Source of the DNA: Zanthoxylum bungeanum
Lineage: Eukaryota; Streptophyta; Magnoliopsida; Sapindales; Rutaceae
NCBI GenBank assembly: GCA_019454045.1
Contig: SKCR01038117.1
Span: forward strand, 124,001 to 188,000
Reading direction: 5' to 3'
DNA: 64,000 bases
The notes under the pieces were generated by a model. It was not told the DNA's origin, did no database searches, and was given only the letters and a program-made list of their open reading frames with translations. This document shows, piece by piece, positions 1 to 25,784 of this stretch (positions are counted from its first letter, which is position 1; every line of letters begins with the position of its first letter). Made by a program: the position numbers and the translations under genes.

Positions 1-960
1 TCAGAAAAACAAACTGGACAAACAGTTTGCTCGTTTCCTGGAGATATTCAAAAAGCTGCACATCAACATCCCATTTGCAGAAGCCTTGGAACAAATGCCC
101 AGTTATGTCAAATTCATGAAAGACATCCTTTCACGAAAACGGAGATTGGGAGATTACGAGACAGTAGCATTGACGGAAGAATGCAGCGCCATCATTCAGA
201 GGAAGCTTCCCCCGAAGTTGAAAGATCCTGGCAGTTTCACAGTTTCATGAACCATTGGAGAACATTACATCGGTAAGGCCTTATGTGATTTAGGTGCCAG
301 TGTTAATTTAATGCCTTTTTCTATTTACAGGAAACTGCAAATTGGAGAAGCAATGCCTACTTCAGTTCTTTGCAACTTGCTGATCGAACACTCGCATTTC
401 CGAGAGGAGTCGTTGAAAATGTGCTGGTCAAAGTTGACAAACTCATCCTTCCAGCAGATTTTCATTCTTGACATGGAAGAAGACAAAGAAGTACCTATCA
501 TTCTTGGGAGACCATTTTTGGCTACAGGTAAAACTGTAATTGATGTGCAAAAAGGAGAACTAACCATGAAAGTGCAGGACCAAGAAGTGACATTTAATGT
601 TTTCAAAGCTATGAAATTCCGAGCGATGAAAAGGAAGAAAAAGAATGCTTCAGAGTTGATGTTATTGATAGTATCATTCAGGATACTGAGCCAAATCCTA
701 CGGATACACTTGAAGCTTGCATCACCAAACTGACTAACAGCGAGCTAGATGCTGAAATCCTGGAATGTATCAACTACCTTGACAAACCATTCCGATTCAA
801 AGCAACACCACCAGTTGAAAGCTTGGAACTGCCAAAGAAAGATCGAATCAAGCCTTCGATTGAAGAACCACCACAGCTGGAGCTGAAGTCACTTCCGAGC
901 CATCTCAGGTATGCATTTTTTGGAAACTCTTCTGAATTACCTGTTATTATTTTTCTTCTC
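1..960 (+). pseudogene. Element A gag tail and aspartic protease region, broken
   Basis: Frames in this stretch give the gag/protease linker (KLHINIPFAEAL, MPSYVKFMKDILSRKR), then DPGSFTV and the protease active-site stretch ALCDLGASVNLMPF near 280-320. In this clade the protease uses DLGAS rather than the more common DSGA. A TGA near 247 and several frameshifts (for example around 380-480 and 620-650, relative to the matching part of element C at 13064-14307) interrupt it. The part after 560 (VQKGELTMKVQDQEVTF) is the conserved linker before RT. Protease would cleave the gag-pol polyprotein in the virus-like particle; this copy cannot be translated in one frame. Confidence 0.8.
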
Positions 961-995
961 TAACATTGGAGCAGGAAGAAAAGTTGCTGAGAGGT

Positions 996-2193
996 TACGA
1001 AAGCACAAAAGAGCCATTGGCTGGACTATAGCAGACATTCGAGGCATTAGTCCATCATTTTGCATGCACAAGATTCTGATGAATGATGAATACAAACCCA
1101 CAGTGGAGCATCAACGGAGACTCAATCCAATCATGAAGGAAGTTGTGAAGAAGAAAGAAAGAAATCATCAAATGGTTGGATGCTGGCATCATTTACCCCA
1201 TCTCAGATAGCACTTGGGTAAGTTCCATGCAGTGTGTACCAAAGAAAGGAGGAATTAATGTGGTCACCAATGAAAAGAACGAGCTGATTCCAACAAGAAC
1301 GGTGACTGGATGGAGAGTATGCATGGATTAAGGAAGCTGAACAAAGCCACGAGAAAGGACCATTTTCCGCTGCCATTCATTGACCAGATGCTAGACAGAT
1401 TGGCAGGACATGAGTCTATGCTTTCTTTCTTGTGGATATTCAGGGTACAATCAGATTGCTATTGCCCCAGAAGATCAGGAGAAAACCACTTTTACATGTC
1501 CCTATGGTACTTTTGCTTTCCGCAGAATGCCATTTGGATTATGTAATGCTCCTGCTACATTTCAGCGTTGCATGATGGCCATCTTCTCAGACATGTTGGA
1601 GCAGAGTATGGAGGTTTTTATAGATGATTTTTCTGTGTTTGGAGATTCTTTTGACCATTGTTTGCAAAATTTGGAACATGTGTTACAAAGGTGCGAAGAT
1701 ACAAACCTGGTACTCAACTGGGAGAAATGCCACTTTATGGTGCAAGAAGGCATTGTTCTTGGACACCGGATCTCACAAAAGGGGATTGAGGTAGACAAAG
1801 CAAAGATAGAGACAATTGAAAAACTACCTCCACCAACATCTGTCAAAGGGATTCGGAGTTTTCTTGGACATGCAGGTTTTTACAGGAGATTTATCAAAGA
1901 CTTTTCCAAGATTGCCAAACCTCTTTGCAATCTTTTGGAAAAGGATGTGCCTTTCAATTTCACAAAAGATTGCCAGAAAGCTTTTGAAATCTTAAAACAG
2001 AAGCTGGTCTCTGCTCCCATCATTGTAGCACCAGATTGGACCCTTCCATTTGAGGTAATGTGTGATGCTAGTGATTTTGCTGTAGGTGCAGTTTTGGGAC
2101 AACGCAAAGCAAAGATTTTCCACACCATTTACTACTCCATCAGAACTCTGAATGAAGCTCAACTCAACTACACAACCACTGAAAAGGAGTTGT
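996..2193 (+). pseudogene. Element A reverse transcriptase, first copy of a tandem duplication
   Basis: This 1.2-kb stretch repeats almost entirely at 2194-3380: the sequence beginning TTACGAAAGCACAAAAGAGC occurs at both 996 and 2194. It encodes the RT region from [12 protein letters not shown] through [26 protein letters not shown] and the start of RNase H ([15 protein letters not shown]). It has its own lesions: an extra 4 bases in the GAAGAAGAAAGAAAG run near 1150, a lost base pair of the tyrosine codon near 1331, and a disturbed frame around 1412-1440. The open part (1410-2285) crosses the duplication joint. It stops before the distal RNase H and integrase parts, so it is an extra half-copy. 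Confidence 0.85.
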
Positions 2194-2262
2194 TACGAAA
2201 GCACAAAAGAGCCATTGGCTGGACTATAGCAGACATTCGAGGCATTAGTCCATCATTTTGCC

Positions 2263-4065
2263 ATGCACAAGATTCTGATGAATGATGAATACAAACCCAC
2301 AGTGGAGCATCAACGGAGACTCAATCCAATCATGAAGGAAGTTGTGAAGAAAGAAATCATCAAATGGTTGGATGCTGGCATCATTTACCCCATCTCAGAT
2401 AGCACTTGGGTAAGTCCCATGCAGTGTGTACCAAAGAAAGGAGGAATTACTGTGGTCACCAATGAAAAGAACGAGCTGATTCCAACAAGAACGGTGACTG
2501 GATGGAGAGTATGCATGGATTACAGGAAGCTGAACAAAGCCACGAGAAAGGACCATTTTCCGCTGCCATTCATTGACCAGATGCTAGACAAATTGGCAGG
2601 ACATGAGTTCTATTGCTTTCTTGATGGATATTCAGGGTACAATCAGATTGCTATTGCCCCAGAAGATCAGGAGAAAACCACTTTTACATGTCCCTATGGT
2701 ACTTTTGCTTTCCGCAGAATGCCATTTGGATTATGTAATGCTCCTGCTACATTTCAGCGTTGCATGATGGCCATCTTCTCAGACATGTTGGAGCAGAGTA
2801 TGGAGGTTTTTATAGATGATTTTTCTGTGTTGGAGATTCTTTTGACTTGTTTGCAAAATTTGGAACAGGTGTTACAAAGGTGCGAAGATACAAACCTGGT
2901 ACTCAACTGGGAGAAATGCCACTTTATGGTGCAAGAAGGCATTGTTCTTGGACACCGGATCTCACAAAAGGGGATTGAGGTAGACAAAGCAAAGATAGAG
3001 ACAATTGAAAAACTACCTCCACCAACATCTGTCAAAGGGATTCGGAGTTTTCTTGGACATGCAGGTTTTTACAGGAGATTTATCAAAGACTTTTCCAAGA
3101 TTGCCAAACCTCTTTGCAATCTTTTGGAAAAGGATGTGCCTTTCAATTTCACAAAAGATTGCCAGAAAGCTTTTGAAATCTTAAAACAAAAGCTGGTCTC
3201 TGCTCCCCTCATTGTAGCACCAGATTGGACCCTTCCATTTGAGGTAATGTGTGATGCTAGTGATTTTGCTGTAGGTGCAGTTTTGGGACAACGGAAAGCG
3301 AAGATTTTCCACACCATTTACTACTCCAGCAGAACTCTGAATGAAGCTCAACTCAACTACACAACCACTGAAAAGGAGTTGCTCGCAGTTGTGTACGCTT
3401 TTGACAAATTCCGCTCTTATCTGCTGGGTCCCAAAGTGGTGGTCTACACAGATCATTCAGCAATGAAATATCTGATCACAAAGAAAGATGCCAAACCCAG
3501 ATTGATCCGTTGGATACTTCTTTTGCAAGAATTCGACGTGGAGATTCGAGACAGGAAAGGAACAGAAAATCAGGTGGCAGATCATCTATCAAGTCAAGCT
3601 CGAGAATGGAGAACAGCTGACAAAGATCCATCAATCAAAGAAACTTTTCCAGATAAACAACTGTTTTCCATAAATCAACAGGAAGTCCCTTGGTATGCTG
3701 ACTATGTCAATTATATTGTGTCAGGAAAATGGCCGTTGGAATGGACAACTCAGCAACGGAAGAAGTTCTTCAAAGAAGTCAAGCATTATGTCTGGGATGA
3801 ACCATACATGTTTAAACGCTGTGCTGATCAATTATTAAGACGGTGCATTCCACAGGAGGAAATCAACAGTGTTTTGCAACACTGTCATTCATCACCATAC
3901 GGTGGACACTTCAGCGGAAACAAAACTGCAGCCAAAGTCCTTCAATCAGGTTTATTCTGGCCCACACTTTTTAAAGATGCTTATCTTTTTGCTTTTCAAT
4001 GTGACAGGTGCCAGAGAACGGGGAATATTTCCAGGAGAACGAAGGACCATTGCAAAACATTCTAG
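2263..4065 (+). CDS. Element A pol: RT, RNase H and integrase zinc finger, 600-codon open frame
   Basis: The longest open frame in the window. Residues about 1-120 are RT fingers/palm ([34 protein letters not shown]), catalytic FIDD lies near 183-186, RNase H begins near 329 ([14 protein letters not shown]) with TEKELLAV and YTDHSA following (about 396) and NQVADHLS closing it. The integrase zinc-binding part follows from about 540 ([15 protein letters not shown], then CDRCQR near 580). Indels near 2830-2850 turn the usual SVFGDSFDHC into an altered stretch but restore the frame. The start chosen is the first ATG after a one-base insertion at about 2262 that separates it from upstream RT residues, so this is not a native start. 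RT, RNase H and integrase would act in the retrotransposon particle; here the integrase continues out of frame. Confidence 0.85.
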
Positions 4066-4990
4066 AAGTGGAAATATTTGATGTATGGGGTATTGATTTC
4101 ATGGGACCCTTTGTTCCATCATTTGGAACCTGTACATCCTGGTTGCTGTAGACTACGTCTCCAAATGGGTTGAAGCAATTGCACTGCCATCCAATGACTC
4201 AAAAGTTGTGATCAAATTCATAAAGAAGAACATTTTCACTCGATTCGGAACACCTCGGGCAATTATCAGCGATGGTGGCTCACATTTCTGTAACAAATAC
4301 TTCGATGCACTCATATCCAAATACGGATTAACTCACAAAGTTGCCACAGCTTACCATCCACAGTCAAATGGACAGTTGAAGTTTCAAACAGGGAATCAAG
4401 AGAATCCTAGAAAGAACCATTGGATCAACAATGAGGGACTGGTCAACAAAACTAGATGATGCATTATGGGCCTAACCGAACACTTACAAAACACCCATTG
4501 GTATTCCCCATATCGATTGGTGTTTGGGAAAGCATGCCATCTGCCAGTTGAGCTTGAACACAAGGCGTACTGGGCACTGAAGAAGTTAATCTTGATTCAC
4601 AAGCTGCAGGAGAGAAAAGATTTCACCAACTCAATGAATTGGAGGAATTTCGCTACAGGCTTATGAGAATGCCAAATTATACAAGGAAAAGACCAAAAAA
4701 TGGCATGACCGAAAAATAGTGCACAGACATTTGGAACCAAGGCAGCAGTGTTGTTGTACAACTCGAGGTTAAAACTTTTCCCTGGAAAGTTAAAATCTAG
4801 GTGGTCCGGACCATTTGTGATCACTCAGGTTTTACCATATGGAGCTGTTGAGTTACAGATCCCAATACCAACAACACATTCAAAGTTAACAGTCAGCGTG
4901 TCAAGCACTACTGGGGAGAATCATTTGAGCGACAAAAAGAAAGTGTCACACTTTCAGATCCAGCATAAACGTTCGAGCAGTCACGTCTAG
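4066..4990 (+). pseudogene. Element A integrase core and C-terminal domain, broken
   Basis: Fragments in several frames show the DDE core: [11 protein letters not shown] at about 4080-4110 (first Asp), IISDGGSHF near 4262 (second Asp) and HPQSNGQ near 4355 just before the Glu region, which is frameshifted. Then [27 protein letters not shown] (in shorter pieces, 4500-4590) and the chromatin-side tail [18 protein letters not shown] (4755-4810). The tail HYWGE is followed by a stop near 4988. Integrase would insert the cDNA into the genome. Several single-base losses, for example near 4057-4140 and 4440-4470, make this copy inactive. Confidence 0.8.
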
Positions 4991-5072
4991 CTGACGACTT
5001 TAAACTTAACGCTCGCAGGGAGGCAACCCATGCAATTTTTGTATATATTGTGATTTGATGAGATTTAATTTT

Positions 5073-5091
5073 GTGTGTTTAGTTTTTGCAG
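5073..5091 (+). promoter_or_regulatory. Splice-acceptor-like site before ORF-X in element A
   Basis: A pyrimidine-rich stretch ends in TTTTTGCAG at 5091, 16 bases upstream of the first ATG of ORF-X (5108). Element B has the same arrangement at 19221-19238. A similar acceptor-like TTTGTGTTTCAG precedes gag in B and C. This would suit expression of the 3' ORFs from a spliced subgenomic RNA, as described for env-like ORFs of some plant Gypsy elements. The site is seen; splicing is inferred. Confidence 0.4.
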
Positions 5092-5107
5092 ATTAAGTCA
5101 TTTCAAG

Positions 5108-5656
5108 ATGGAAGAAGCTCTCGCAAATATTCACAAACAATTTCCTTCTCTCCCTCAAAAATCTCTAATGAAAGTTTACAAAGCTCGCTTGGAACGGATG
5201 AGGTTACTAACAATCCATGGTGTGCCCAATGACATTCGTTGGGTAATTGAAGCACGAGTCCGATTGGCAGGTGAGTCTTCTGAATCTTTTATTTCACATC
5301 TGTCTGGTTTTTGGAAGAAGCACCTATGCAAAGAAACGTAGAGCTAAACAAATGGATGTTTGTTACAAATGTGCACGTTGGAATTGCAATACTCGTTGTC
5401 GTTCTTTAGGAATGGTGTCTGTTAATCGCGAAGACAAAATTAAATTCATTAGGGATGGCTTGAGTAAGGAGTCTTTAGATGATATATCTTCGACTCTTAA
5501 GACGCATCCCGGTGGATATGTTCACATAAACTTTCGCAGATTACATACACAATATCAAAAGAAAGACAACAGTTAAGTCTTGGGAATCTGACTAAAAAAG
5601 ACCCTGTTTGCCAATTTATAAGAAAATTGGATGGGAAGCTTGTCCCTGACGCATAG
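5108..5656 (+). pseudogene. ORF-X of element A: unknown protein with cysteine cluster, frameshifted
   Basis: I do not recognise this family. Aligned by eye with the element B copy it spans about 180 codons from MEEALANIHKQFPSLPQKSL to KLVPDA and a stop at 5654. Visible parts: a basic N-terminal helix (KARLERM), a segment VIEARVRLAGESS, a cluster CYKCARWNCNTRC (spacing C-x2-C-x4-C-x3-C, possibly zinc binding), then DKIKFIRDGLSKESLDDIS and a charged C-terminal part. At least two frameshifts (near 5310-5340 and 5520-5540) break it. It lies between integrase and the LOG-like gene, where Athila relatives may carry an env-like ORF, but it shows no signal peptide or membrane segment. Confidence 0.6.
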
Positions 5657-5897
5657 ACGTTAATTAAGCTGTAAATTCTTGTACATATTATATCTCTTTG
5701 TCTTTTCTAATAATTGTTATTTGTTTGTTTTGTTTTTATTTTCTCCGATGGATCCAGATTTGTTGACTATCACGATCTATTTTACTATTTTGCTACTAAT
5801 CGTCCTTTGGAAGATACTTGTGCTATTTTCACTCACCCTTTTCAGGTATTATAAATTCAACTCATCATTGCACTTTTGAAGACATCCAGAGTAAAAA

Positions 5898-6560
5898 ATG
5901 GAAACCACTTCAAGAAGACGAGTTGAAAAACATTTGTGTGTTTTGCGGTAGTACTGTTTGTACTAAACCACAATACATAGAAGCAGCACAGGAATTGGTC
6001 GAGTCTTAGCTGTAAGGAATATGCACTTAATATATGGAGGAGGCAATCTTGGACTAATGGGGATTGTTTCAAAGGCCGTACAGGAAGGAGGCAGTCACGT
6101 TTTGGGAATCATCCCAAAACCCTTGGCAGAGGCAAATCTTATTGAACCATCAAACGGAGAGGAACTGATCGTACAAGGTATGTCTGAACGACTGATAGAA
6201 ATGATTAACCGTGCTGATGCTTTTATTGCTTTGCCAGGTGGCTTGGGCACATTGGAGGAAATTTTTATTGTACTATCTTGGGCGAACCTAAACATACACC
6301 AGAAACCAATTGGGCTGTACAACGTTGATGGGTTTATGATTTTCTTTGTGTGTTTCTTGATGATGCTCGAAGAAATGGGTTCGTGTCAAAACCTTAAAAA
6401 GAAATCCTCTTTACTGCCAGGAACTGCTCCAGATCTGATTGACCAACTCATAGCCTATGAACCAAAAGTTGACCAATCATATCAAAGATAAATTGGTCCG
6501 AGGACGATCGTGGTAAGAGGCGTAGAATTAATCTGGATCTTAACCTTAAATTGTCCTGTA
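5898..6560 (+). pseudogene. LOG-like: LOG-like cytokinin riboside 5'-monophosphate phosphoribohydrolase in element A, broken
   Basis: LOG enzymes release the active cytokinin base from its riboside 5'-monophosphate in the cytosol. The fragments show the family's order: NH2-terminal ICVFCGS, YGGGNLGLMGIVSKAV, LGIIPKPL, ERLIEM and the signature PGGLGTLEE (about 6235-6260), then NVDGF and a C-terminal helix; length is about 195-215 codons, normal for LOG. The conserved Glu of PGGxGTxEE and the Arg of the RK/ER motif are present. No introns are seen although plant LOG genes are intron-rich, so it looks mRNA-derived. Breaks: an extra A in 5926-5930, losses near 5997 and 6332, and a gain near 6419. 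The central catalytic part 6021-6330 remains open. The frame once seems to have continued to about 6560. Confidence 0.85.
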
Positions 6561-7105
6561 GAATTTCAGCTAACCAGGTATTATTTTCTAAACTCTTCTT
6601 CTACTGTTTAAGACATTGGGGACAATGTCTCATTTAGGTTTGGGGGTGATGATGTATAGTTAAGTACTTGTTTGTATTGTGTTTTTTTTTTTTTTTTTTT
6701 TTTAGTCCAAAATTTTTCGAAAAATACAAAAAAAAAATTGAAAAATTTTCAAAAATTACAAAAATATTTTGCATTTTTGTGTTTTTATTTTGACTAAAAA
6801 GGTGAAATTGGTAAGAGATAGCCGAGTAAGGAGTTTCCACTCCTGAGACGTATCTCCAACCTTTTTTGAAACAAGTTAATTTTTTGTTTATTTCATTTTA
6901 AATTATTTAATTTGTGAATTCTCCATAATACTGACTAAAATGGATCTTCATATGCTTAGTTGGCAGGTATTATCAACATACATGGAACATACAGACATGA
7001 GCTGTAATTGAAAAGTTTGTAATATTCCGTGCTTAGTTTAATTGGAGGAAGCATCTATAAATAGTAATGGAAAAAAAAAATTTCTGATTTACAAAAATAA
7101 AGTAT
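6561..7105 (+). other. Element A non-coding 3' region with internal polypurine-like tract
   Basis: No gene is visible. It holds a palindromic stretch ACATTGGGGACAATGT (about 6613-6628) directly before GGTTTGGGGGTG at 6637-6648, a second copy of the motif that also primes the LTR at 7899. Next come a T run and A-rich stretches (6685-6780) that fold back on each other around TTTTTCGAAAAA. Element B has the same order at about 20700-20950. Such a central polypurine-like tract is common in Athila/Tat elements. Confidence 0.6.
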
Positions 7106-7335
7106 CTAAGATCCGGGTTATTAAGTCTGTAAGGGTGTTTTAACACCTAGTGCCCTAAAACCAACTGGTTTGGGAGTCACTGGCCCAAAGCTCGCTACAT
7201 GGATCGAATATGCTACAAAATATATATATATATCTGAAGTCTGAGTAATTAAGTTCGTAGGGGTGTCTTAACACCTGGTGCCCTAAAGCCAACTGGTTTG
7301 GGAGCCACCGACCTAAAGCTCGCTACATAGACGGA
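7106..7335 (+). repeat. Tandem hairpin module, two units, element A
   Basis: Two units of about 105 bases (7106-7210 and 7233-7335) share the same order: a TTAAGT segment, the hairpin GGTGTTTTAACACC (7134-7147; GGTGTCTTAACACC at 7262-7275), GTGCCCTAAA, a second hairpin around CCAACTGGTTTGG, then GAGCCACCGACC-type sequence and CTCGCTACAT. Element B carries both units too (21222-21445). The hairpin stems are kept while loops and linkers vary, which suggests a structured RNA element of the 3' untranslated region. Confidence 0.6.
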
Positions 7336-7898
7336 AGGTATTGTATATAAATAAAAAGTCAAAATTCAGAAAAAGCAAAAAAAAAATATCAGAAAAATGA
7401 GAAAAATTATTTCATTGCTACAAAAAGGTGTGAAATCTGATAGAACTTTAGGACAAAAATATTACTCTCTTATCAACTGCACTTATGACTGTTGTGGGCA
7501 AAAATGAGTTGTTTAATATTTTGTTGGTTGTGTATATGAAGAATGGTAAAAAATAATCGGAGAATTTACTTATTCGGTAATTTAGAAAGAAACAAAACAA
7601 CTAGTAACTTGGAGTAGAAGTTTCACCTAATTAGTCACTAACATCTTTATTCTCTTTTCGCTTGTCTTTTTGCTTTTTGTGTGCATTAGTTTTACTACCT
7701 TTTTTTACTTTTGTAAAATGTTTGTGGGTATCATTGCTGTAAACCCTCACGAGACTACAACTCGTCCACTAGGGACACCTAGGGGTTTAAAGGGTTGTTG
7801 CATATGCTAAATGCAACCGTGATCCCTATGAAAATGGCTTAGTTAAATTTTATTCTGTTATTTTATTCTGTATTTTGCTCGAGGACTAGCAAAATGTT
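7336..7898 (+). other. Element A 3' non-coding region with decayed short ORF and conserved block
   Basis: A stretch near 7437-7600 matches the 69-codon open frame of element B at 21535-21744 but is frameshifted here. A strongly conserved block at 7725-7840 (CCCTCACGAGACTACAACTC, CACTAGGGACACC, then TTGCATATGCTAAATGCAACC) reappears at 21830-21925. It has short inverted repeats (CGAG...CTCG, TTGCAT...ATGCAA). No gene recognised. Confidence 0.5.
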
Positions 7899-7911
7899 AG
7901 GTTTGGGGGTG
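7899..7911 (+). promoter_or_regulatory. Polypurine tract of element A
   Basis: AGGTTTGGGGGTG lies directly against the LTR start TGATGAGTGG. In LTR retrotransposons this purine-rich RNA resists RNase H and primes plus-strand DNA. The same sequence and spacing occur before the 3' LTR of element B (21998-22010). Confidence 0.8.
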
Positions 7912-8096
7912 TGATGAGTGGTATTTATATCACTATTTCCCACTCATTTAATCTAATATTTTGTATAGTTTCTTGAGTTTTGTGAATATTTTGATATGTT
8001 TTTGTGTTATTTTGTAGATAAATAAAGTTTCAGACATTCTGGAGGTGATTTGGAGCAAAATAGTGAAAATTGGCGAAAAAGGGCATTTTGGTAATT

Positions 8097-8545
8097 TCCA
8101 GCGTCGCGCCGCCCAGACCTTCCGCGTCGCGACGCCCAGTGTGCGCCGAATCTGCTAACGTGCGCCGGGTCACACTGTCAGAATTTGAGAAGTCTGACTT
8201 TGCTAACGTGCGCCGTAACACGTGTCACCATCACATCCAATCTGCTAACGTGCACCGTACCACGTGTCAACATCATATGCTGCCGACACTCAGACTTGAC
8301 ACGTGTCGCCTCGTCATCAGCCATGTCAGCGGTCAACGAGTCAACTTTGCCATGTGTCATCACACACGTCATCGCCACGCAGCGCCACGTCAGCATGACG
8401 TCATCATGATGTCATCACAATAATTGAGTTTTAGCCGCCTTGCCACGTGTCGCGTGAACAGTCAGCCGCCATGACGCGTGTCGCCTCCTCAGCGTGCCAC
8501 GTCTTACTATTCAGCGTCGCGACGCTGATCTGGCGTCGCGACGCT
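8097..8545 (+). promoter_or_regulatory. GC-rich U3 promoter region with G-box/ABRE-like motifs and palindromes
   Basis: ACGTGTC occurs exactly four times (8220, 8262, 8301, 8445), twice within a CACGTG core; this is an ABRE/G-box-like motif. Three perfect 12-bp palindromes GCGTCGCGACGC lie at 8124, 8514 and 8533, the last two flanking 19 bases apart. GCTAACGTGC recurs at about 8154, 8203 and 8244. The whole block ends about 15 bases before the TATA box. Binding by bZIP-type factors is known for ACGTG cores; regulation here is inferred. Confidence 0.55.
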
Positions 8546-8560
8546 GGCACCAAAATTTTC

Positions 8561-8568
8561 TATAAATA
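8561..8568 (+). promoter_or_regulatory. TATA box in element A LTR
   Basis: TATAAATA, preceded by the GC-rich promoter block and followed after about 25-30 bases by a pyrimidine-rich CTCTCTCTCCC stretch suitable for a transcription start. LTRs of element B have TATAAATA in a similar place (14927, 22613). Confidence 0.7.
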
Positions 8569-8866
8569 CTGCGCGAAATTTCAGATTTTGATATTATTCT
8601 CTCTCTCCCAATTCCGTGTAAAGAGAGTTTCTCTCCCTAAAAAAATTTTAGTTTTTAATTTTTTTTACTTTTGTAATTTAATTTTAATTACTTTTTGTAA
8701 TAATAATAGTTTACTTTCTTTATTTTTTACAGTTTTTACTATTTACCATGAGGAGGTAATTTCCCCAGCTAGGGTGAAAGGTAAATCTTTTACTGTTGCT
8801 ATTTAGTTTAATCTCCCTTAAAAATAATATATTTACTAATTAAAATGCTGATTAATAAAGGATACC

Positions 8867-9130
8867 GCTATATTGGTCGGTTGGCAATTTAATTTAATCT
8901 GGTTTAAACTTGACTTAATAAGGAAACCGCTATATTGGTCGGTTGGTAAATTTATTTTCTGTTGGTTTGAACCTGATTATCAAGGATACCGCCAGATTTG
9001 TAGGTTGGTAAATTTTATTTTGGTACCGCCTTTATGGCTGGATTATGGACAAATATTACCGCCTATATGGCTGGTTGGACTTAATTTGACTTAATCAGGA
9101 TACCGCCAGATTGGTCGGTTGATTAAATAA
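8867..9130 (+). repeat. LTR minisatellite with GGATACCGCC and GGTCGGTTGG cores
   Basis: Five to six degenerate units of roughly 40-70 bases, each with GATACCGC(C/T), a short A/T spacer, and (G)GTCGGTTGG or GGCTGGTTGG, separated by AATTTAATTTG-like linkers. The same unit family is in both element B LTRs (15253-15400 and 22937-23080), so it is an old part of the LTR and not a chance expansion. Confidence 0.65.
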
Positions 9131-10040
9131 TATCACAAGTTTATATATTATTTTATTGGGAGATATCTAAATTAGTAATAGTAAAAGTAATTCCTTTTAC
9201 CTTAGCATTTCATTTTTATTGTATTTTTACTTTTCAGTATTTATTTTACCGCAATTACTTTTCAGCAGTTTATGTCTTTTATTTTCAAGTTTTTACCAGC
9301 CCTAGCTATGTGTCATAACTAAGTTAATATCTAGGGTTGTGATAAAATTCAATGTCACGGGTTTTAAGGGTTAGATTATAATTTGGGTAATATAAAAATT
9401 TATTTATTGAGTCTTAATCTTAATGCTCTTTAATTAACTGGCCATTAATTAAATTGATTAGGCAAACTTAAAATGAACTAGACATAGGGATTTTAAGTTT
9501 AAGACCTTAGATTCAATAACCCACGATCTTCCTTAAGGATAGATAACCCTTTCAATAGATTTCCTTACAGGATAGGAATATACCTATCGGGCGGGGGTAG
9601 CCATAATTGGAACTTAATCATAATGAATCTAGGTAATTTGGTTGACATAGACATATGGTTCAATTGGATTATACTAGGTATTTGTAATTGACCATCGGAA
9701 GAGGCTTTTTACATAAATTAGTGGTCCAGGAATAAATCAATATATTACCCAATTATAAAATAACAACTTTATCTTTAAATAATATTGGAATAAATCACAA
9801 CCCTAGATAGTTTTAATATTGAATTTTTCTTAAAATCTACCTTCAAACAATTTTATTTTATTGTCTTTAAATTTAGAATCGTCGCTATTTCAAATCAATT
9901 AAACAACATGTTAGATACTAGTAATCATTTAACCTCATAAAATTAATAACTTAGGTATTAAGTCCTCGTGGGATCGATATTTTTTATACTACTTGAACGA
10001 TACGTACGCTTGCGTTATACGTGTGTGTTTACGCCGGTCA

Positions 10041-14307: not shown

Positions 14308-14312
14308 CTTGT
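14308..14312. repeat. Left target-site duplication of element B (CTTGT)
   Basis: CTTGT directly precedes the LTR start TGATGAGCGG and is repeated directly after the other LTR at 24135-24139. Five bases is the usual size for Ty3/Gypsy insertions. Confidence 0.9.
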
Positions 14313-14803
14313 TGATGAGCGGAAAATATAACAATATTTACCGCCCCTTTTACTTAATATTTTGTTTAGTTTCTCGGGTTTGATGAACGTTTTGATATGT
14401 TTTAGTTATTTTAGAGATAAAATAATATTGGGACTCAATGAAATCATTTAGGACGAAATATGGGTCAAATAAGGCAAATATTGGACTTGACATATTAATT
14501 TTGGAGATTGGAAACTTGAAATGGCGTTTTAATGAAATGCAGTTTGGAAATTCCAATTTTGTGCATCTGTCGTATTTTGGGCATAACTTTTTACTCCGAT
14601 ATCGGATTGAGCTGGTTCAAGTTCAATATTAAATAAGACTCAATGAACTACAACTTAAAGAACAAAATAATTTCGAAGTCTGAAGATTTCATGACCAAAA
14701 TTGATGAAGATCCGTAAGTGTGTTATGTGTAATTATTAAAGTCATTTTCAAAGTAAATAAATAAATAAATAATAAAAATAGTCAAACTCCCACCAAACAT
14801 GTT

Positions 14804-14905
14804 AGCAATTAGTGGAGAAATTAGTGGAGCAATTAATAATGGATTTGGTGGAGCAATTAGTGGAGCAATTAGCGGAGCAATTAATAATGGATTTGGTGGA
14901 TGATT
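14804..14905 (+). repeat. AATTAGTGGAGC short tandem array upstream of the TATA box
   Basis: Units of 12-15 bases (GCAATTAGTGGA and a longer AATTAATAATGGATTTGGTG form) repeat about seven times immediately before the promoter. The 3' LTR has fewer units (about 22500-22590), so copy number changed after insertion. Confidence 0.6.
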
Positions 14906-14926
14906 TGATGGGGGCAAAATTTTGCC

Positions 14927-14934
14927 TATAAATA
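14927..14934 (+). promoter_or_regulatory. TATA box, element B 5' LTR
   Basis: TATAAATA preceded by the near-palindrome GGCAAAATTTTGCC; the same arrangement is at 22613-22620 in the 3' LTR. Confidence 0.7.
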
Positions 14935-16398
14935 CCAAGCCATTTCATTTGTAAATTCATATTTTCTTCTTTGAAATTCCTTAAGAATAACTAAGAAGAT
15001 TGTATCTTGTTTGTTTATTTACAGCTTTCAGTAATTAATTTCCGCTTTTGCACTTTCTTTTCTTTACTTTTCAGTTTTTACTTTCCGTAATTTACTTTTA
15101 CGCACAGTATTTTCCTTTATTTATTTTTTCAGTTTTTACTTTTCAAGCAATGAGGAAGTAACTCCCCCTTGCTGGGGTAAAAGGTAAAGCTTTTATTATT
15201 GCTATTTAGATTAATCTCCCTTAATTATAAAATAATAAACCTTACTTAATGAGGATACCGCCATATTGGTCGGTTGGTAATTAATTATAAATTGGTTTTA
15301 ACCTGACTAAGCATGGATACCGCCTGGTTGGTCGTTTGGTAATTAATTATTAATTTGACTTAATCAGGAAACCGCCTATATGGCTGGTTGGTAATTATCA
15401 CGCAAAGTTAATATATTATATTAATGGATATATCTAAAATTGTAGTAATAAAAGTGAATCCTCTAACCCACATCATTTTCTTTTATTGTACTTTTACTTT
15501 ATTTACTTTCAGCAATTTACTTTTCAGCAATTTACTTTTCAGCAATTTACTTTCAGCAATTTACTTTTCAGCAATTTACTTTTCAGCAATTTACTTTTCA
15601 GTATTTAATTTCCAACATTTACTTATGTATTTTCTTTTATTTAAGTTTTTAGTACCAGTAAATATGTGTCGTAACTAAGCAAGATATCTGGGGTTGTGAT
15701 GAAGTCCAATATCATCGGTTATAAGGGTAAGGGGTAAATTACAGTTTGGTAATATAAATGTTTATTTATTGAGCCATAATCTTAATGATTTTATTAATTG
15801 GCCATTAATAAAATTGAACTGGTAAACTTAATGAATGAACTTGGAAAAGAGATTTTAGGTTAAAAGACCAATAGACTCAATAGCCATGATCTTCCTTGAG
15901 GATAGATAACCCTTTAATAGATTTCCTCACAGGATATGAATATACCTGTCGGGCGGGGTAGCCATAATTGGAACTTAATCTTCATGAATTCAGATAATTT
16001 GGTTAACATAGGAATATGATTAATTGGGTTATACTGGGTATTTGTATTTGACCATCGGAAGAAGTTTTTACAAAATTTTGTGTTACAGGTTAATAAACCA
16101 ATATATTACACTAACGTAAAATAACCACTTCATCTTTTAAAAAGATATTGGAAGGATTCACAACCCTGGATAGTTTTATCAATTTGAATTTTCTTCAATC
16201 TACTTTCAAGCAATTTATTTACTTGTTTTAATTTTAAAGTCACCACTCAATCAAACAATCAATCCATTAGATACTTGTAAACATTTAACTTCATAAATTG
16301 ATAACAAAAGGTTTTAAGTCCTCGGGGGATCGATACTTTTTATACTACTTAAACGATACGTGTGCTTGCGTTATACGCGTGTGATTACGCTCCAGTCA

Positions 16399-16412
16399 AG
16401 TTTTTGGACTTA
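16399..16412 (+). promoter_or_regulatory. Element B primer binding site, deleted
   Basis: After the LTR end, AGTTTTTGG runs straight into ACTTATTTATC. In element C the same place reads TTTTTGGCGCCGTTGCTGGGGACTTG (reverse strand of 25781-25807). The 14 bases that pair with the tRNA-Asp 3' end are missing here, with GG on both sides of the gap. Without them minus-strand priming is not possible. Confidence 0.8.
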
Positions 16413-16491
16413 TTTATCTTTCACTATTAGTTTTGGGGTTAGATACGTTACTTGTATCTAATTTATTTTTACTTATTGTTTTTGTTTTTTT
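16413..16491 (+). other. Element B leader with acceptor-like end
   Basis: Short T-rich leader between the primer site and gag, ending in TTTTTTGTGTTTCAG right before the gag frame. It matches the element C leader (25705-25780, minus strand). It may be the end of a leader intron; no donor was identified. Confidence 0.35.
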
Positions 16492-17835
16492 GTGTTTCAG
16501 GTTCTCAGAAACTACATGAGACGAACCAGAAGCTTTGAACTCCGACCGCTCGACCCAGAAATTGAAAGAACCATCAGACAGTTGAGAAGGGAAAGGCGTG
16601 AAGGCCAAGAAGCTTTAGTCAACATGGAATCTGAACCTTTGGAGGTTGCACCACCAATGGCCATTCGAGACAGAACCATACTGGTGGTCGACGGCTTCAT
16701 TTCCTATATTGTACTTCCTCATTTACCAGCAAATGCGTGTGACATCAAATCATGCATTCAGATGATTCAGCAGTCAGTACAGTTTGGGGGAAAGCAACTG
16801 AAGATCCTAATACCCACATCAGCAACTTCCTGGAAGTTTGCGGCAATTTCAATTACAACCGAGAAGCTGAAGAAGCAATGAGACTGCGTTTTTCCATACT
16901 ACTTGAAGGACATTGCAAAGGCTTGGCTACATTCACTACCAGCAGGTTCCATCACAACTTGGAACACTCTAGCCACCAAATTTCTTGCAAAGTACTTTCC
17001 ACCAGCCTGAACTGGAAAGCTGAGGAATGACATCACATCTTTTGTACAACAAGACTCGGAAACTCTCTGCGAAGCTTGGGAAAGGTACAAAGATTTGCTC
17101 CGGAAATGTCCTCACCATGAGATTCCAAAATGGCTTCAAGTCCAAACTTTCTATAATGGACTTTCTGGAATAATGAGAACCACAATTGATGCTGCTGCTG
17201 GAGGAGCTTTATGGCAAAAGGAGAAGATCAAGCCTGGGACCTAATCGAAGAAATGGCCAACAATAATTCCTTGTGGCCAACAGAAATGAGCATGATCCAA
17301 AGAATTGCAGGAATTTATGAAAGTGGAGCCAATACAGCAGTCAATGCCAAGCTGGATCAGATATGCAAATTTATGGAGACTCTTACCACTAGATCCACAA
17401 GTTCACCATATGGAGGAGAACCAGAACCAAACCAACTTGAAGAGACGGTGAATTATGTCAACAATTTCAACAGGCAGGGGAACAATCCATATTCCAACAC
17501 CTACAACCCAGGGTAGCGGAATCATCCAAATTTTTCATGGAACAACAATTCAGGGCAAAAGAACAATCCACCACATGTATTCCAACAACAGAACAAAGGC
17601 CAGGAACATGCAAATGAACTAGGAATAGCAGAAGTGTTGGCTCAGTTAAAAAAGTACGATGCAATGTTTCAGAGCCAATCTGCTTCCATCAAAGCACTGG
17701 AGAATCTAATTGGACAATTGGCCAATGCTCAGAGTTACAGACCACCAGGTAATCTTCCCAGCAACACAGAACCAAATCCAATGAACATAGGGAAGGAGCA
17801 GTGTCATGCCATCATGTTAAAAAGCTGGTACTGAA
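16492..17835 (+). pseudogene. Element B gag, broken
   Basis: Frames 16492-16881, 16752-17030, 17211-17516 and 17634-17834 together follow the gag of element C: N-terminal MRRTRSFELRPLDPEIERTI, then EDPNTHISNFLEVCGNFNYN, SLCEAWERYKDLLRKCPHHE, YNPG plus the NHPNFSWNNN-type stretch and SYRPPGNLPSNTEPNP near the end. These are Retrotrans_gag features of the Athila/Tat clade; gag would form the particle. Frameshifts near 16780-16880, 17010, 17210 and 17810 and a stop at 17515 (TGG to TAG) inactivate it. Confidence 0.8.
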
Positions 17836-18520
17836 ATCAAACAAGATGTTGGAGCCAAAACAACTGCTGAGAAGTTTCAAAAGAAACAAAGCAACAGATG
17901 GAGGAAAAAAAGAAGAAGGAAAAAAGAACAGATCACTCCACCTCCATCTTTTCCTTAGCGTCTTCAAAAAAAAAAAACTGGAAAAGCAGTTTGCTCATTT
18001 CCTGGAGGTGTTCAAAAAGCTGCACATCAACATTCCATTTGCAGAAGCTTGGAACAAATGCCCAGCTATGTAAAATTCATGAAATACATTCTTTCACGAA
18101 AACGGAGATTGGGAGATTACGAGACAGTTATTGATATAGAAGAATGCAGCGGCATCATTCAGAGGAAGCTCCCCCAAAGTTGAAAGATCCTGGAAGTTTC
18201 ACCATTCCTTGCTATAGGAGAACATAACTTTGGTAGGGCTTTATGTGATTTAGGTGCAAGTATTAACTTGATGCCTTTTTCTATTTTCAGGAAACTACAG
18301 ATTGGAGAAACAATGCCTACCTCAGTCTCTCTACAACTTGCTGATAGAACGCTCGTATTTCCGAGAGGTGTAGTTGAAGATGTGCTGGTCAATGTTGACA
18401 AATTTATTTTCCCAGCAGATTTTATTGTCCTTGATATGGAGGAAGACGAAGACGTGCCGATCATCCTCGGGAGACCATTTTTAGCTACAGGTCTAACCGT
18501 TATTGATGTACAAAAATGAG
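17836..18520 (+). pseudogene. Element B gag tail and protease, broken
   Basis: Lysine-rich gag tail (17840-17960), then KLHINIPFAEA and MPSYVKF-like sequence (18020-18090), DPGSFTI (about 18187) and the protease stretch LCDLGASINLMPFSIF (18245-18290), followed by FPRGVVEDVLVNVDK and ILGRPFLATG. A stop at 18517 (CAAAAATGAG) and frameshifts near 18050, 18170 and 18210 break it. It parallels 13064-14307 of element C. Confidence 0.75.
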
Positions 18521-18528
18521 AACTAACC

Positions 18529-19113
18529 ATGAGGGTACAAGACCAAGAAGTAACATTCAATGTTTTTAAAGCCATGAATTTCCTGAATGACGAGAATGAG
18601 GAATGTTTCAGACTTGATGTTATAAATGGTACCATCCAGACCTCCAATGCAATGCAAAGTTCTGCTGACAAACTTAAAGCATGTCAATTGTCTGTGGAGC
18701 CTGAAGATAAAGCGTATTGCGTACTGAAGAAGCCTATTCTTGCACTACAAGCAACAGAAGAGAAACAGTTCCACCAGCTCAATGAATTGGAGGAATTTCA
18801 CATTCAGCCTTTTGAGAATGCCAAATTATACAAAGAAAAGGCCAGAAAGAAACATGATGAGAAGTTAGTGCGCATACAACTGAAACCAGGGCAGAAGGTA
18901 CTGTTAAACAAATCAAGGTTGAAACTTTTCCCATGGAAACCAAAATCCGGTGGTCAGGTCCATTCCAATCACCAAGGTTTTACCAGATAGAGCCGTTGAG
19001 TTACATGATCTCGACTTCAACAAAACATTCAAGGTTAAAAAAAGCGTGTCAAGCACTACTGGGGAGAATCATTGAGCGACAAAAAGAAAATGTCACACTT
19101 TCAGATCCAGCCT
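18529..19113 (+). pseudogene. In-frame fusion of protease linker to integrase C-terminus (RT, RNase H, integrase core deleted)
   Basis: One open frame (18529-18990, 153 codons) starts in the linker VQDQEVTFNVFKAMNF and passes after KLKAC directly into SVEPEDKAYCVLKKP, the integrase region that in element A reads [15 protein letters not shown]. About 3.6 kb of pol present in element C has been removed. The joint has AAAGCATG-like microhomology and keeps the frame. It continues to LKLFPWKPKSGG before a frameshift; further integrase tail (HYWGE, SDPA) is visible to a stop near 19112. Confidence 0.8.
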
Positions 19114-19220
19114 AACGTTCGGGCAGTCATGTCTAGCTAACGACTTTAAACTTAGCGCTAGCTGGGAGGCAACCCAAGCAATTTGTGTACATATTGTGAT
19201 GTGGTGTGTTTTAATTTTTG

Positions 19221-19238
19221 TGTGTTTAGTTTTTGCAG
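19221..19238 (+). promoter_or_regulatory. Splice-acceptor-like site before ORF-X in element B
   Basis: TGTTTAGTTTTTGCAG ends at 19238, 16 bases before the ATG of ORF-X; it is followed by GT. It is conserved with element A (5073-5091) even where nearby sequence differs. Inferred to serve a spliced RNA for the 3' ORFs. Confidence 0.4.
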
Positions 19239-19254
19239 GTTAAGTCAATTCAAG

Positions 19255-19802
19255 ATGGAAGATGCTCTCGCAAATCTTCACAATCAATTTCCTTCTCTCC
19301 CTCAAAAATCTCTGATGAAAGTCTACAAAGCTCGCTTGGAACGATGATGAGATTACTGATGATTAAAGGTATTCCTACTGACATTCGTTGGATTATTGAA
19401 GCACGGGTCCGATTGGCAGGTGAGTCTTCTGACTCTTTATTTCACATCTGCTTGGTTTAGTAGAAGCACCTATGCTAAAAGAGAAGAGCTAAAAGAATGA
19501 GTGTTTGTTATAAATGTGCTCGTATGATATGTAATACTCATTGTCGTTCTTTAGGAATGGTGTCTGATAACCGCGAAGATAAGATTAATTTCATTAGGGA
19601 TGGCTTGAGTAAGGAGTCTTTGGATGACATATCTAAAACTCTTGAGACGCATCCCAGTGGATATGTCTATCATGAAATTCGTGTGTTATATGCACAATTC
19701 CAAAAGGAAAGACAACAGTTAAGTCTCAGGAATCTGACTCAAAAAGACCTTGTTTGCCAATTTATAAGAAAATTGGATGGGAAACTTGTCCCTGACGCAT
19801 AG
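19255..19802 (+). pseudogene. ORF-X of element B: unknown cysteine-cluster protein, frameshifted
   Basis: Homologous to 5108-5656 over its whole length and better kept in its second half (open 19497-19802). Visible: MEDALANLHNQFPSLPQKSL, KARLE, IIEARVRLAGESSDS, CYKCARMICNTHCRSLGM, DKINFIRDGLSKESLDDISK, VYHEIRVLYAQFQKERQQL and KLVPDA before a TAG at 19800. A small insertion near 19344 and a stop at 19459 split it. Residues are conserved with element A despite both being broken, so the ORF was probably under selection before these insertions. Function unknown; the cysteine spacing could bind zinc. Confidence 0.6.
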
Positions 19803-20048
19803 ACGTCAATCAAGCCGCTACATTTCTTGTAAATATTATATCTCTGTCTTTTCCTAATAATTGTGATTTGTTTTGTTGTTTTCTTTTATTTTCTCTGACA
19901 GGATCCAGACCTTTTTTACTATCACGATTTATTTTACTGTTAACTAATAATTGTCATTTGGCAGGTACTAGTGCTATTATTTTACTCACCATTTTCAGGT
20001 GTTATAAATTCAACTCATCATTGCACCTTTGATGGCATCCAGATAAAA

Positions 20049-20617
20049 ATGGAAGCTACTTCAAGAAGACGGGTTGAAAACATCTGTGTGTTTTGCTGTA
20101 CCAGTGTTGGTGTTAAACCAGAATACGTAACAGCGGCACAGGAATTGGGTCGAGTCATTGCTGCAAGGAATATGCACTTAGTATATGGCGGTGGCAATCT
20201 TGGACTAATGGGGATCGTTTCAAAGGCTGTATAGGATGGAGGCAGTCAAGTCTTGGGAATCATCCCAAAACCCTTGTCGGAGGCGAATCTTATTGAATCA
20301 TCAAACGACGAGGAACTAATCGTGCCAGGTATGTCTGAACGACTACAAGAGATGACTAATTGTGTTGATGCTTTTATTGCTTTTCCTGAGGCTTGGGCAC
20401 GATGGAGGAAATTTTTACAGTACTATCTTGGGCAAACTTGAACATACACCAGAAACTGCTTGGACTGTACAATGTTGATGGATTTTATGATTTTCTTTGT
20501 GTGTTTCTTGATGATGCCTGGAGAAATGGGTTCTTGTCAAAGCCTGTAAAAGAACTCCTATTTACTGCCAGAACTGCCCCAGATTTAATTGACCAAATCT
20601 TAGCCTTTGAACCTTAA
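20049..20617 (+). pseudogene. LOG-like: LOG-like phosphoribohydrolase in element B, broken
   Basis: Starts MEATSRRRVENICVFC at the ATG at 20049, 51 bases after an acceptor-like TTTTCAG. It follows the LOG order: AAQELGRVIAARNMHLVYGG, LGLMGIVSKAV, LGIIPKPLSEANLIE, MSERLQEM, LEEIFTVLSWANLNIHQK, NVDGFYDFLCVFLDDA and a C-terminal helix (TAPDLIDQ). Lesions differ from element A: CAG to TAG at 20232, a lost base at about 20389 destroying the PGG part of PGGxGTxEE, a CGS to CCT change near 20096 and a stop at 20615. No introns. It lies in the same order after ORF-X as in element A, showing that the pair moved together. Confidence 0.87.
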
Positions 20618-21221
20618 ATTGACCCCATTCTTTCCAAGATAAACTGGTATGATAATGATCGTGGTAAGAGGCGTCGGATAAATCTGGATCTTAACCTTTA
20701 ACTTTTCATTTAGATGTAGAATTTCAACTAACCAGGTACGGTTTTCTAAACTCTTCTTCTACTGTATAAGACATTGGGGACAATGACTCATTTAGGTTTG
20801 GGGGAGGAGAATAGTTAAATTGTATCTTATTTTTATTGTTTTATTTTTAGTCAAAATTTTTCGAAAAAGCCAAAAAAAAAATTGAAAAATTTTACAAAAA
20901 ACCAAATTTTTTTTTTGTATTTTTGTGTTTTTATTTGATTAATTATGTGAAATTGGTGTGAGATAGCTATGTAAGGAATTTCCATTCCTGAGACGTATCT
21001 CAACCTATTTCGGAACAAGTTAATTTTTGTTTATTTCCTTATTTAATTTGTGAATTCTCCATAAAACTGACTAAAATGAATCTTCATATGCTCAGTTGAC
21101 AGGTATTATCAGCATACATGGTAACATACAAACATGAGCTGTAATTGAAAAGTTTGAAATATTCAGTGCTCTAGTTTAATTGGAGGAAGCATCTATAAAA
21201 AGCGATGGAGTAAAAAAAAAC
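20618..21221 (+). other. Element B non-coding 3' region
   Basis: Starts with sequence that in frame still reads GKRRRINLDLNL (about 20670-20700), the former LOG-ORF tail. Then ACATTGGGGACAATG and GGTTTGGGGG (about 20770-20803), the internal polypurine-like tract, followed by A-rich foldback sequence around TTTTTCGAAAAA. No other gene visible. Confidence 0.55.
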
Positions 21222-21445: not shown

Positions 21446-21534
21446 TGGAAGATATTGTATATAAATAAAAAAAATTCAAGAAAAAAAAAATCAAAAAAAT
21501 CAAAAGAAAATTATTCCATTGGTTAAAAAAATGT

Positions 21535-22010: not shown

Positions 22011-24134
22011 TGATGAGCGGAAAATATATCAATATTTACCGCCCCTTTTACTTAATATTTTGTTTAGTTTCTCGGGTTTGATGAACGTTTTGATATGTCT
22101 TAGTTTATTTTACAGATAAAATAATATTGGGACTCAATGAAATCATATAGGATGAAATATGGGTCAAATAAGGGCAAATATTGGACTTGACATATTAATT
22201 TTGGAGATTGGAAACTTGAAAAGGAGTTTTAACAAAGTGCAGTTTTGGAAATTCCAATTTTGTGCATCTGTCATATTTCGGGCATAACTTTTTACTCCGA
22301 TATCGGATTGAGCTGATTCAAGTTCCAGATTAAATAAGACTCAAGGCACTATAACTTGGAAGAACAAAATAATTTCGAATTCTGAATATTCATGACAGAA
22401 ATTGATAAAACATCCGGAAGTGTGTTATGTGTAATTATTAAAGTCATTTTCAAAGCAAATAAATAAATAATAAAAATAGTCAAACTCCAACCAAAAATGA
22501 TAGCAATTAGGGGAGCAATTAATAATGGATTTGGTAGAGCAATTAGTGGAGCAATTAGTGGAGTAATTAATAATGGATTTGCTGGATGATTTGATGGGGG
22601 CAAAATTTTGCCTATAAATACCAAGCCATTTCATTTGCAAATTCATACTTTCTTCTTTGAAATTCCTTAAGAATAACTAAGAAGATTGTATCTTGTTTGT
22701 TTATTTACAGCTTTTAGTAATTAATTTCCTCTTTCGCACTTTCTTTTCTTTACTTTTCAGTTTTTACTTTCCGCAATTTACTTTTACGCACAGTACTTTC
22801 CTTTATTTACTTTTCAGTTTTTACTTTTCAAGCAATGAGGAGGTAACTCCCCCTTGCTGGGGTAAAAGGTAAAGCTTTTATTATTGCTATTTACATTAAT
22901 CTCCCTTAATTATAATATAATAAACCTGACTTAATGAGGATACCGCCATATTGGTCGGTTGGTAATTAATCATAAATTGGTTTTAACCTGACTAAGCATG
23001 GATACCGCCTGGTTGGTCGGTTGGTAATTAATTATTAATTTGAGTTAATTAGGATACCGCCTATATGGCTGGTTGGTAATTATCACGCAAAGTTAATATT
23101 TTATATTAAGGGAGATATCTAAAATAGTAGTAATAAAATTGAATCCTCTAACCCCCAGCATTTTCTTTTATTGTACTTTTACTTTATTTACTTTTCAGCA
23201 ATTTACTTTTCAGCATTTACTTTTCAGCAATTTACTTTTCAGCAATTTACTTTTCAGCAATTTACTTTTCAGCAATTTACTTTTCAGTATTAATTTCCAA
23301 TATTTACTTTATGTATTTTCTTTTATTTAAGTTTTTACTACCCGTAAATATATGTCGTAACTAAGCCAGTTATCTGGGGTTGTGATGAAGTCCAATATCA
23401 CCGGTTTATAAGGGGTTAAATTACAGTTTGGGTAATATAAAGGTTTATTTATTGAGACTTAATCTTAATTCTTTTTATTAATTGGCCATTAATAAAATTG
23501 AACTGGTAAACTTAAAATGAACTTGGAAAAGAGATTTAGGTTAAAGACCGTAGACTCAATAGCCCACGATCTTCCTTGAGGATAGATAACCCTTTAATAG
23601 ATTTCCTCACAGGATAGGAATATACCTGTCGGGCGGGGGTAGCCATAATTGGAACTTAATCTTAATGAATTCAGATAACTTGGTTAACATAGGAATATGA
23701 TTAATTGGGCTATACTGGGTATTTTTATTTGACCATCGGAAGAGGCTTTTACATAATTTCGTGTTCCAGGTTAATAAACCAATATATTACACGGAAGAGG
23801 CATTTACATAATTTCGTGTTCCAGGTTAATAAACCAATATATTACACAAACGTAAAATAACCACTTCATCTTTTAAAAAGATATGGGAAGGATTCATAAC
23901 CCTGGATAGTTTTATAAATTTCAATTTTCTTCAATCTACTTTCAAGCAATTTATTTACTTGTTTTAATTTTAAAGTCACCACCCAATCAAACAATCAATC
24001 CATTAGATACTTGTAAACATTTAACTTCATAAATTGATTACAAAAGGTTTTAAGTCCTCATGGGATCGATACTTTTTATACTACTTGAACGATATGTGCG
24101 GTTGCGTTATACGCGTGTGATTACGCTCCGGTCA
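22011..24134 (+). repeat. 3' LTR of element B
   Basis: TGATGAGCGG to CTCCGGTCA, 2124 bp. Longer than the 5' LTR partly because of a 55-bp tandem duplication at 23737-23846, and shorter in the AATTAGTGGAGC array. TATAAATA at 22613. Followed by the CTTGT duplication. Confidence 0.92.
23737..23846 (+). repeat. 55-bp tandem duplication private to the element B 3' LTR
   Basis: CGGAAGAGGC(T/A)TTTACATAA to ATATATTACA occurs twice at an offset of 55 bases; the 5' LTR has only one copy near 16046-16105. The two copies differ by about one base, so the duplication is recent compared with insertion. Confidence 0.8.
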
Positions 24135-24139
24135 CTTGT
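24135..24139. repeat. Right target-site duplication of element B (CTTGT)
   Basis: Exact match to 14308-14312; element C's gag frame continues from here on the minus strand. Confidence 0.9.
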
Positions 24140-25699: not shown

Positions 25700-25784
25700 A
25701 AGAAAACAAAAAACAATAAGTAAAACGAAATTAGATACAAGTAACGGTATCTAACCCCAAAACTAATAGTGAAAGATAAACAAG

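Follow-up and report, generated by a model that had tools for sequence, protein, structure and literature searches.

An abundant, mobile group of retrotransposons in Zanthoxylum bungeanum carries two accessory genes in its 3' region, one encoding a cysteine-rich protein (CRP) and the other derived from LOG. The element group is real, and both its gene content and its recent mobility were observed. As the best reading, to which we assign a probability of about 0.45, an old captured LOG has been reshaped into an element protein that is nuclear, may bind a corepressor and is paired with a viral-type CRP. The analysis covers a window of 64,000 nucleotides, meaning the whole stretch of DNA under study (Table 1), together with searches of the plant assembly (3.96 Gb, 51,709 contigs).

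Table 1. Positions of elements A and B and their parts in the window
Feature	Position	Strand	Remarks
Element A	before base 1 to 10040	+	5' end beyond window
Element A pol region: protease-like ORF at start, RT/RNase H and integrase pieces	251..4960	+	ORFs; Pfam RVT_1, RT_RNaseH, Integrase_H2C2, rve
Splice-acceptor-like TTTTTGCAG, just upstream of CRP ORF	5083..5091	+	putative function
Element A cysteine-rich ORF (CRP; carlavirus/betaflexivirus nucleic-acid-binding relative)	5108-5656	+	PF01623, PF05515; broken
Splice-acceptor-like CCCTTTTCAG, upstream of LOG	5836..5845	+	putative function
Element A LOG-derived gene	about 5898-6550	+	PF03641; broken
Element A polypurine tract TTAGGTTTGGGGGTG	7897..7911	+	adjoins 3' LTR
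Element A 3' LTR, TGATGAG...CCGGTCA, 2.1-kb	7912..10040	+	LTR comparison
Target-site duplication CTTGT, left of B	14308..14312	+	
Element B, whole	14313-24134, 9822 bp	+	both LTRs and target duplication
Element B 5' LTR	14313..16398	+	
Element B gag and protease region	16516..18690	+	ORFs
Element B cysteine-rich ORF	19255..19802	+	broken by indels
Element B LOG-derived gene	20049..20701	+	broken
Element B 3' LTR	22011..24134	+	
Target-site duplication CTTGT, right of B	24135..24139	+	

Elements A, B and C in the window

Elements A and B are classed by their sequence as Athila-type Ty3/gypsy elements of two subfamilies. The ORF list and Pfam matches show that the pol frames of A are broken and its RT partly duplicated. 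About 1.03 kb of this RT region is present twice in tandem (1155-2190 against 2347-3384, 99.0% identical), which is either a recent duplication or an assembly artefact. Among the Pfam profiles used, RNase H in the broken pol matched RT_RNaseH families only; an aRH domain would mark Tat (PMC6317226).

A preliminary description of this DNA had placed a LOG-like gene of A after integrase and before the polypurine tract and 3' LTR, and this arrangement agrees with the PF03641 match and with the coordinates. The three LOG motifs it named are all present in A. The gene is not intact in a single frame: ICVFCGS lies in a different frame from YGGGNLGLMG and PGGLGTLEE, and the LOG copies of A and B both contain indels and in-frame stops relative to another copy. 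The longest open piece in A matches PF03641 at E 4.4e-30. The CRP gene, a second accessory ORF between integrase and LOG in both elements, was absent from that description. Element B carries the LOG gene in the same place, as had been claimed, but its integrase is mostly missing, as is most of RT, and both accessory genes are retained. The gag piece of B gave no Pfam match, and its protease match fell below the cut-off. The LTR pair of B is 95.2% identical (K2P 0.049).

A further element of the same kind, C, lies on the minus strand at 11487-14312 and 24140-25800, split by the insertion of B; it includes a gag end and a tRNA-Asp-type PBS near 25785. Right after the LOG gene of A, a polypurine-like GGTTTGGGGG (6637-6646) is a near copy of the true polypurine tract about 1.26 kb downstream, and might be an additional priming site or a remnant of the way in which the 3' region was put together. 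Elsewhere, positions 29709-30000 hold an array of 29-base repeats around GGTCCATTCCCGAACCGT, and a long minus-strand array at 55321-58502, read as repeated WTGDVTFPQVQVPFSARGRGTSHRVSPSDWGR-like ORFs, is probably a satellite or element repeat.

Abundance, mobility and selection

With the LOG region of A as query, 6053 first-look candidates turned up across the genome, and with the LOG of B 7176, both being loose counts and not verified copies; equally loose counts were obtained with the CRP (5566) and integrase (INT; 7915) queries. All 40 scored places of the A query, A itself included, match nearly the whole query at 96-100% identity. Besides B, the B query gave 39 full-length places at 94-96%, plus two partial ones. 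Ten copies with long flanks were picked by LOG similarity to A, so that the share of LOG-less elements is not readable from this sample. CRP, LOG and LTR start follow one another in this order in all ten. RT was matched in nine (not in L015) and gag in nine (not in L010), INT is partial in L015, and the Gypsy order of RT before INT holds in 9 of the 10 loci, the exception again being L015.

Both LTRs were measured in nine of these copies, with L010 left out. A perfect 5-bp target duplication was present in six (L002, L015, L016, L017, L023 and L030), and in this measurement none was found for L005, L009 and L008. The LTRs of the six copies diverge by K2P 0.0063-0.0153; assuming 1.3e-8 substitutions per site and year, these copies would have inserted about 0.2-0.6 million years ago. 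The tract TTAGGTTTGGGGGTG beside the 3' LTR is identical in eight of the nine measured copies, and the PBS TGGCGCCGTTGCCGGG follows the 5' LTR in eight; in each case the ninth is one base off. We take this PBS to be of the tRNA-Asp type, which is typical of Athila. With the Athila lineage (OTA superclade), the elements share this type of PBS, 5-bp target duplications and sense ORFs between pol and the 3' LTR; they differ in carrying CRP and LOG instead of ORF1 or env-like 3' ORFs.

The preliminary description had held that the family carried LOG while mobile, which is borne out by the CTTGT duplication of B, by the duplications of the six copies above, and by the LOGs of A and B each having close copies of their own. 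An origin by segmental duplication of a host locus, or from a host LOG retrocopy hit by element insertions, has a negligible probability. Two copies do lie in one window, and nothing further was found in favour of this origin. Segmental duplication is excluded because perfect 5-bp target duplications flank B and six of the nine copies elsewhere; the adjoining flanks also differ, the candidate places number in the thousands, and the 3' LTRs of A and B are 75% identical.

Thirty copies were fetched, including the near-identical pairs L003/L011 and L008/L012 (2-3 differences of 3663 bases, or 3.66 kb), each of which may be one insertion counted twice. Counting the reference in each case, the 217-aa LOG is unbroken in 17 copies and broken in 13, and the 182-aa CRP is unbroken in 5 and broken in 25; both genes are unbroken in 3 copies. 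Set against a single reference copy, the LOGs show 47 synonymous and 56 non-synonymous differences (pN/pS 0.36), and the CRPs show 265 and 241 (pN/pS 0.25, leaving out six copies with large CRP gaps). The corresponding ratios of element B to the references are 0.29 for LOG and 0.30 for CRP. These ratios pool selected and post-insertion changes and are thereby pushed toward one. Both genes show purifying selection and do not look like junk cargo. The many broken copies would fit the idea that both ORFs are chance pick-ups persisting without function, which is nevertheless very improbable given these ratios, protein families of both ORFs that stay open at 50-60% identity, and the openness of the LOG matches in the genome. 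With AtLOG3 as query, 57,829 first-look candidates were obtained; all 150 scored places lie at 49-52% identity, and 145 of them are open through the match without a stop, a count made irrespective of LTR context.

The C-terminal 61-residue piece of AtLOG3 matched 21 genome places at 72-87%, ending at query residue 38-44. In six contigs a second LOG3 piece is found about 55-245 bases further on, a gap of the kind that an intron would leave. Host LOG genes distinct from the element copies therefore seem to exist in this genome. The element copies read through the host exon-like edge, in agreement with the intron-less gene reported earlier, and because they do so we infer that LOG was captured via spliced RNA.

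Catalytic core, pocket and tail of the LOG-derived protein

An unbroken LOG copy matches the AtLOG3 structure 2a33 (E 1.6e-58, about 50% identity) and TIGR00730 (E 5e-50). Its relatives were taken as the best 120 of 7862 matches to the protein P0001, and the names among the matches listed are Xanthoceras, Populus (some called LOGL10), Paulownia, Reevesia and Diplodiscus. Relatives of LOG and CRP outside this genome were listed by protein similarity, whatever their setting in those genomes. A phylogeny of the element ORFs against host LOGs had been suggested in the preliminary description. In a tree of 33 element-type relatives, 22 plant LOGs (AtLOG8 included) and a single bacterial LOG, the element-type sequences group together in one clade (support 93/95), next to that of the plant LOGs (100/95); a long outgroup branch leaves the depth of this split unsure. 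Among viral contigs, an alignment search with LOG returned 23 loci at 28-55% identity over the best segment, mostly short or weak and none similar to the element LOG.

According to PMC4979012, Arg99 and Glu122 of CgLOG are the proposed catalytic pair, Met96, Lys100 and Glu121 belong to the adenine site, and Met96, His97, Lys100, Glu125 and Trp129 to the prenyl site. Alanine mutants of AMP-binding and catalytic residues have their activity nearly abolished, in a set whose description includes Lys100 (PMC4979012). We compared 103 element-type sequences, namely P0001 and the 102 of its 120 listed relatives that have at least 200 residues (18 shorter ones were dropped), with a canonical set of 120 listed plant LOGs from the top of a LOG3 search, in which LOG7 and LOG8 types are poorly sampled. 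Of the 103, 94 keep the catalytic Arg, 101 keep the catalytic Glu and 102 keep the pocket Trp, whereas the equivalents of His97, Lys100 and Glu125 (CgLOG numbering) are found in 29, 8 and 8. All six positions are kept in 120 of 120 canonical LOGs, and the one LOG8 examined has all three pocket residues. P0001 has none of the three and keeps the PGGxGTxxE motif.

Eight of the 103 relatives retain His, Lys and Glu together, and in the other 95 both Lys and Glu are gone. At the level of sequence, the phosphoribohydrolase core of the element-type LOGs is preserved and the adenine/prenyl pocket altered. Because the eight full-pocket sequences include the deepest branches of the element-type clade in the tree, the pocket was apparently lost a single time, following capture. 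Gln replaces the catalytic Arg in P0010, P0011, P0014, P0017, P0020, P0026, P0030 and P0115 (8/103 listed), and with Cys counted as well this Arg is changed in nine. The Gln replacements suggest that some lines no longer require catalysis, which may not be needed in all element LOGs.

The C-terminal tail sets the element LOGs further apart. A basic cluster is present in the last 20 residues of 98 of the 103 listed relatives as against 1 of 120 canonical LOGs, and an EAR-like LxLxL, itself a short motif, lies within the last 12 residues of 83 of the 103 (P0001 included) as against 0 of 120. With the tail in register (92 rows), Leu stands at positions -5, -3 and -1 in 84, 87 and 86 sequences, and the residues between vary. 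EAR repression motifs of plants, which bind TOPLESS-type corepressors, have LxLxL as their core. The Xanthoceras-type sequences without LxLxL could be losses. Since one protein, P0042, combines the tail with a canonical pocket, the tail may predate the pocket change. In the predicted structure, 149 of 217 residues have a pLDDT of at least 90 and residues 204-217 fall below 50, so that the core is modelled confidently and the tail is disordered. Element LOGs thus share with plant LOGs such as AtLOG3 (2a33) the fold, the PGGxGTxxE motif and the catalytic Arg and Glu; they differ in their identity of about 50%, the mostly lost Lys/Glu pocket, the intron-less gene, and the basic and LxLxL-bearing tail.

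The preliminary description had proposed that the element activates cytokinin. In its full form, this holds that an active LOG would raise free cytokinin and so promote division of meristem or germline-forming cells and the element's own spread. The retained PGGxGTxxE core and catalytic pair (94 and 101 of 103), purifying selection, the confidently modelled fold, the TIGR00730 match and the whole canonical pocket of eight relatives speak for it. The rarity of the other three pocket residues, which all 120 plant LOGs have, and the CgLOG alanine changes speak against it, and the altered pocket and new tail argue against simple cytokinin activation as far as can be judged from protein sequence. 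We therefore regard cytokinin activation as doubtful and, on the whole, unlikely. P0001 scored 114.6 bits on a curated model for cytokinin LOGs (cut-off 300 bits), a result dropped as counter-evidence because three canonical plant LOGs also miss the cut-off, at 131.9-135.6 bits.

The product could instead be a nucleotide hydrolase of changed specificity, acting on AMP or another NMP, that aids reverse transcription or blocks a nucleotide alarm, with the tail serving for localisation only. A catalytic pair and phosphate site that are mostly kept while the pocket has changed would suit such an enzyme. The change of Arg to Gln or Cys in nine sequences would not, and the strict spacing of the tail leucines exceeds what localisation needs; we consider this explanation improbable. 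In the preferred reading of a remade nuclear protein, the LOG product would enter the nucleus through its basic tail and bind a TOPLESS-type corepressor via the EAR-like LxLxL, and the nucleotide-binding LOG dimer might serve as a scaffold or act on some nucleotide that is not one of the usual cytokinin precursors.

The cysteine-rich partner, earlier reports and significance

The unbroken CRP scores above the Pfam cut-offs of PF01623 and PF05515 (28.4 vs 20.9 and 27.3 vs 23 bits), the families Carla_C4 and Viral_NABP. Each family was also matched by 22 of 25 CRP relatives at E 0.01 or better. The relatives are the best 120 of 453 matches, those named among the matches listed being Xanthoceras, Populus, Acer, Orobanche and Rhamnella; Xanthoceras and Populus are common to the listed LOG and CRP relatives. 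Like the carlavirus/betaflexivirus CRPs, the element protein has a basic stretch followed by a Cys cluster. It differs from them in being a retroelement-encoded protein of 182 aa whose last third, outside the Pfam matches, is conserved among its relatives. One CRP relative, P0227, is extended and ends in LSLSL, which is EAR-like as in the LOG products.

The CRP model has low confidence (pLDDT 61.8), and with it the structure search returned no viral structure at E below 0.001. Among the first 11 rows of this search, 8 are small plant-virus proteins named silencing suppressor, nucleic-acid- or RNA-binding protein, or 15-kDa protein, at E 0.17-3.1 and with poor superposition of the low-confidence model; TM values of the first four rows are 0.14-0.27. 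The viruses of these eight rows presumably belong to the Betaflexiviridae. No CRP relative was found by alignment against viral contigs, phage records gave no match, and the PDB gave three matches only, at E 0.16-0.53. According to PMC12172455, RNA silencing can be suppressed by carlavirus-type CRPs, and the one encoded by chrysanthemum virus B is a transcription factor that causes hyperplasia.

Upstream of the two genes, pyrimidine-rich CAG patterns of the TTTTTGCAG type occur in 20 of the 30 fetched copies, and also in B, and those of the CCCTTTTCAG type in 22 of the 30. A similar stretch upstream of LOG is readable in P0010 and P0011 (about 66% LOG identity), where the frame is open by chance. 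These candidate acceptors fit env-like spliced messages by analogy. Taken as a mechanism, the 3' region of an abundant Athila-type group would code for a CRP and for a protein derived from LOG, acquired through the spliced message of a plant LOG gene, and both would be made from spliced subgenomic RNA in the manner of a retroviral env. The CRP would bind nucleic acid and weaken RNA silencing, and together the two proteins could act as a counter-defence or host-reprogramming module favouring element expression.

LOG domains in Gypsy elements are known in outline. The abstract of Steinbauerova et al. 2011 is said to report two Athila-like elements similar to LOGL4. The preliminary description had taken LOG-bearing LTR families to be undescribed, a claim that does not hold: PMC9289625 describes Gypsy elements with the LOG (YgdH) domain from Citrus sinensis and C. 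clementina and, without a filter, from Populus trichocarpa, and cites Steinbauerova et al. 2011. Those elements share with ours a LOG-like domain inside Ty3/gypsy; the LOG section of that paper treats domain presence alone, with no analysis there of a CRP partner, tail, pocket change, selection or copy number. The same source describes orchid Gypsy elements that have likewise captured an accessory enzyme, in this case an AlkB-type m6A demethylase, found in that screen in Phalaenopsis only (PMC9289625). Neither LOG nor cytokinin is named in the searched portions of PMC7264820, PMC11963269 and PMC11728184. Among the papers listed by our literature searches there was no report joining a CRP with a retrotransposon, or a retrotransposon with LONELY GUY and carlavirus, and nothing on topic for LOGL4 with Athila, for a carlavirus NABP alongside additional ORFs, or for captured cytokinin or LOG genes in LTR retrotransposons. 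Three features found in this analysis, namely the CRP partner, the altered pocket and the tail, were not encountered in the literature searched.

Among the extra ORFs of plant retrotransposons, only 21.4% have any recognised domain (PMC6317226). Both extra ORFs described here have recognisable parents, one a host enzyme and the other a plant-virus protein family; with known parents and purifying selection on both, their function is therefore directly testable. We put forward only tentatively, as a possibility, that these elements form a widespread eudicot retrotransposon lineage with a two-gene host-control module, in which a viral-type silencing suppressor accompanies a LOG turned nuclear corepressor recruiter. 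If true, plants would have in this module a counterpart of those retroviruses that carry both accessory counter-defence genes and captured growth-control genes. Retroelements and betaflexiviruses may be linked by gene exchange in either direction, and some of the plant genes annotated as LOG, for instance Populus LOGL10, may belong to elements and play no part in making cytokinin.
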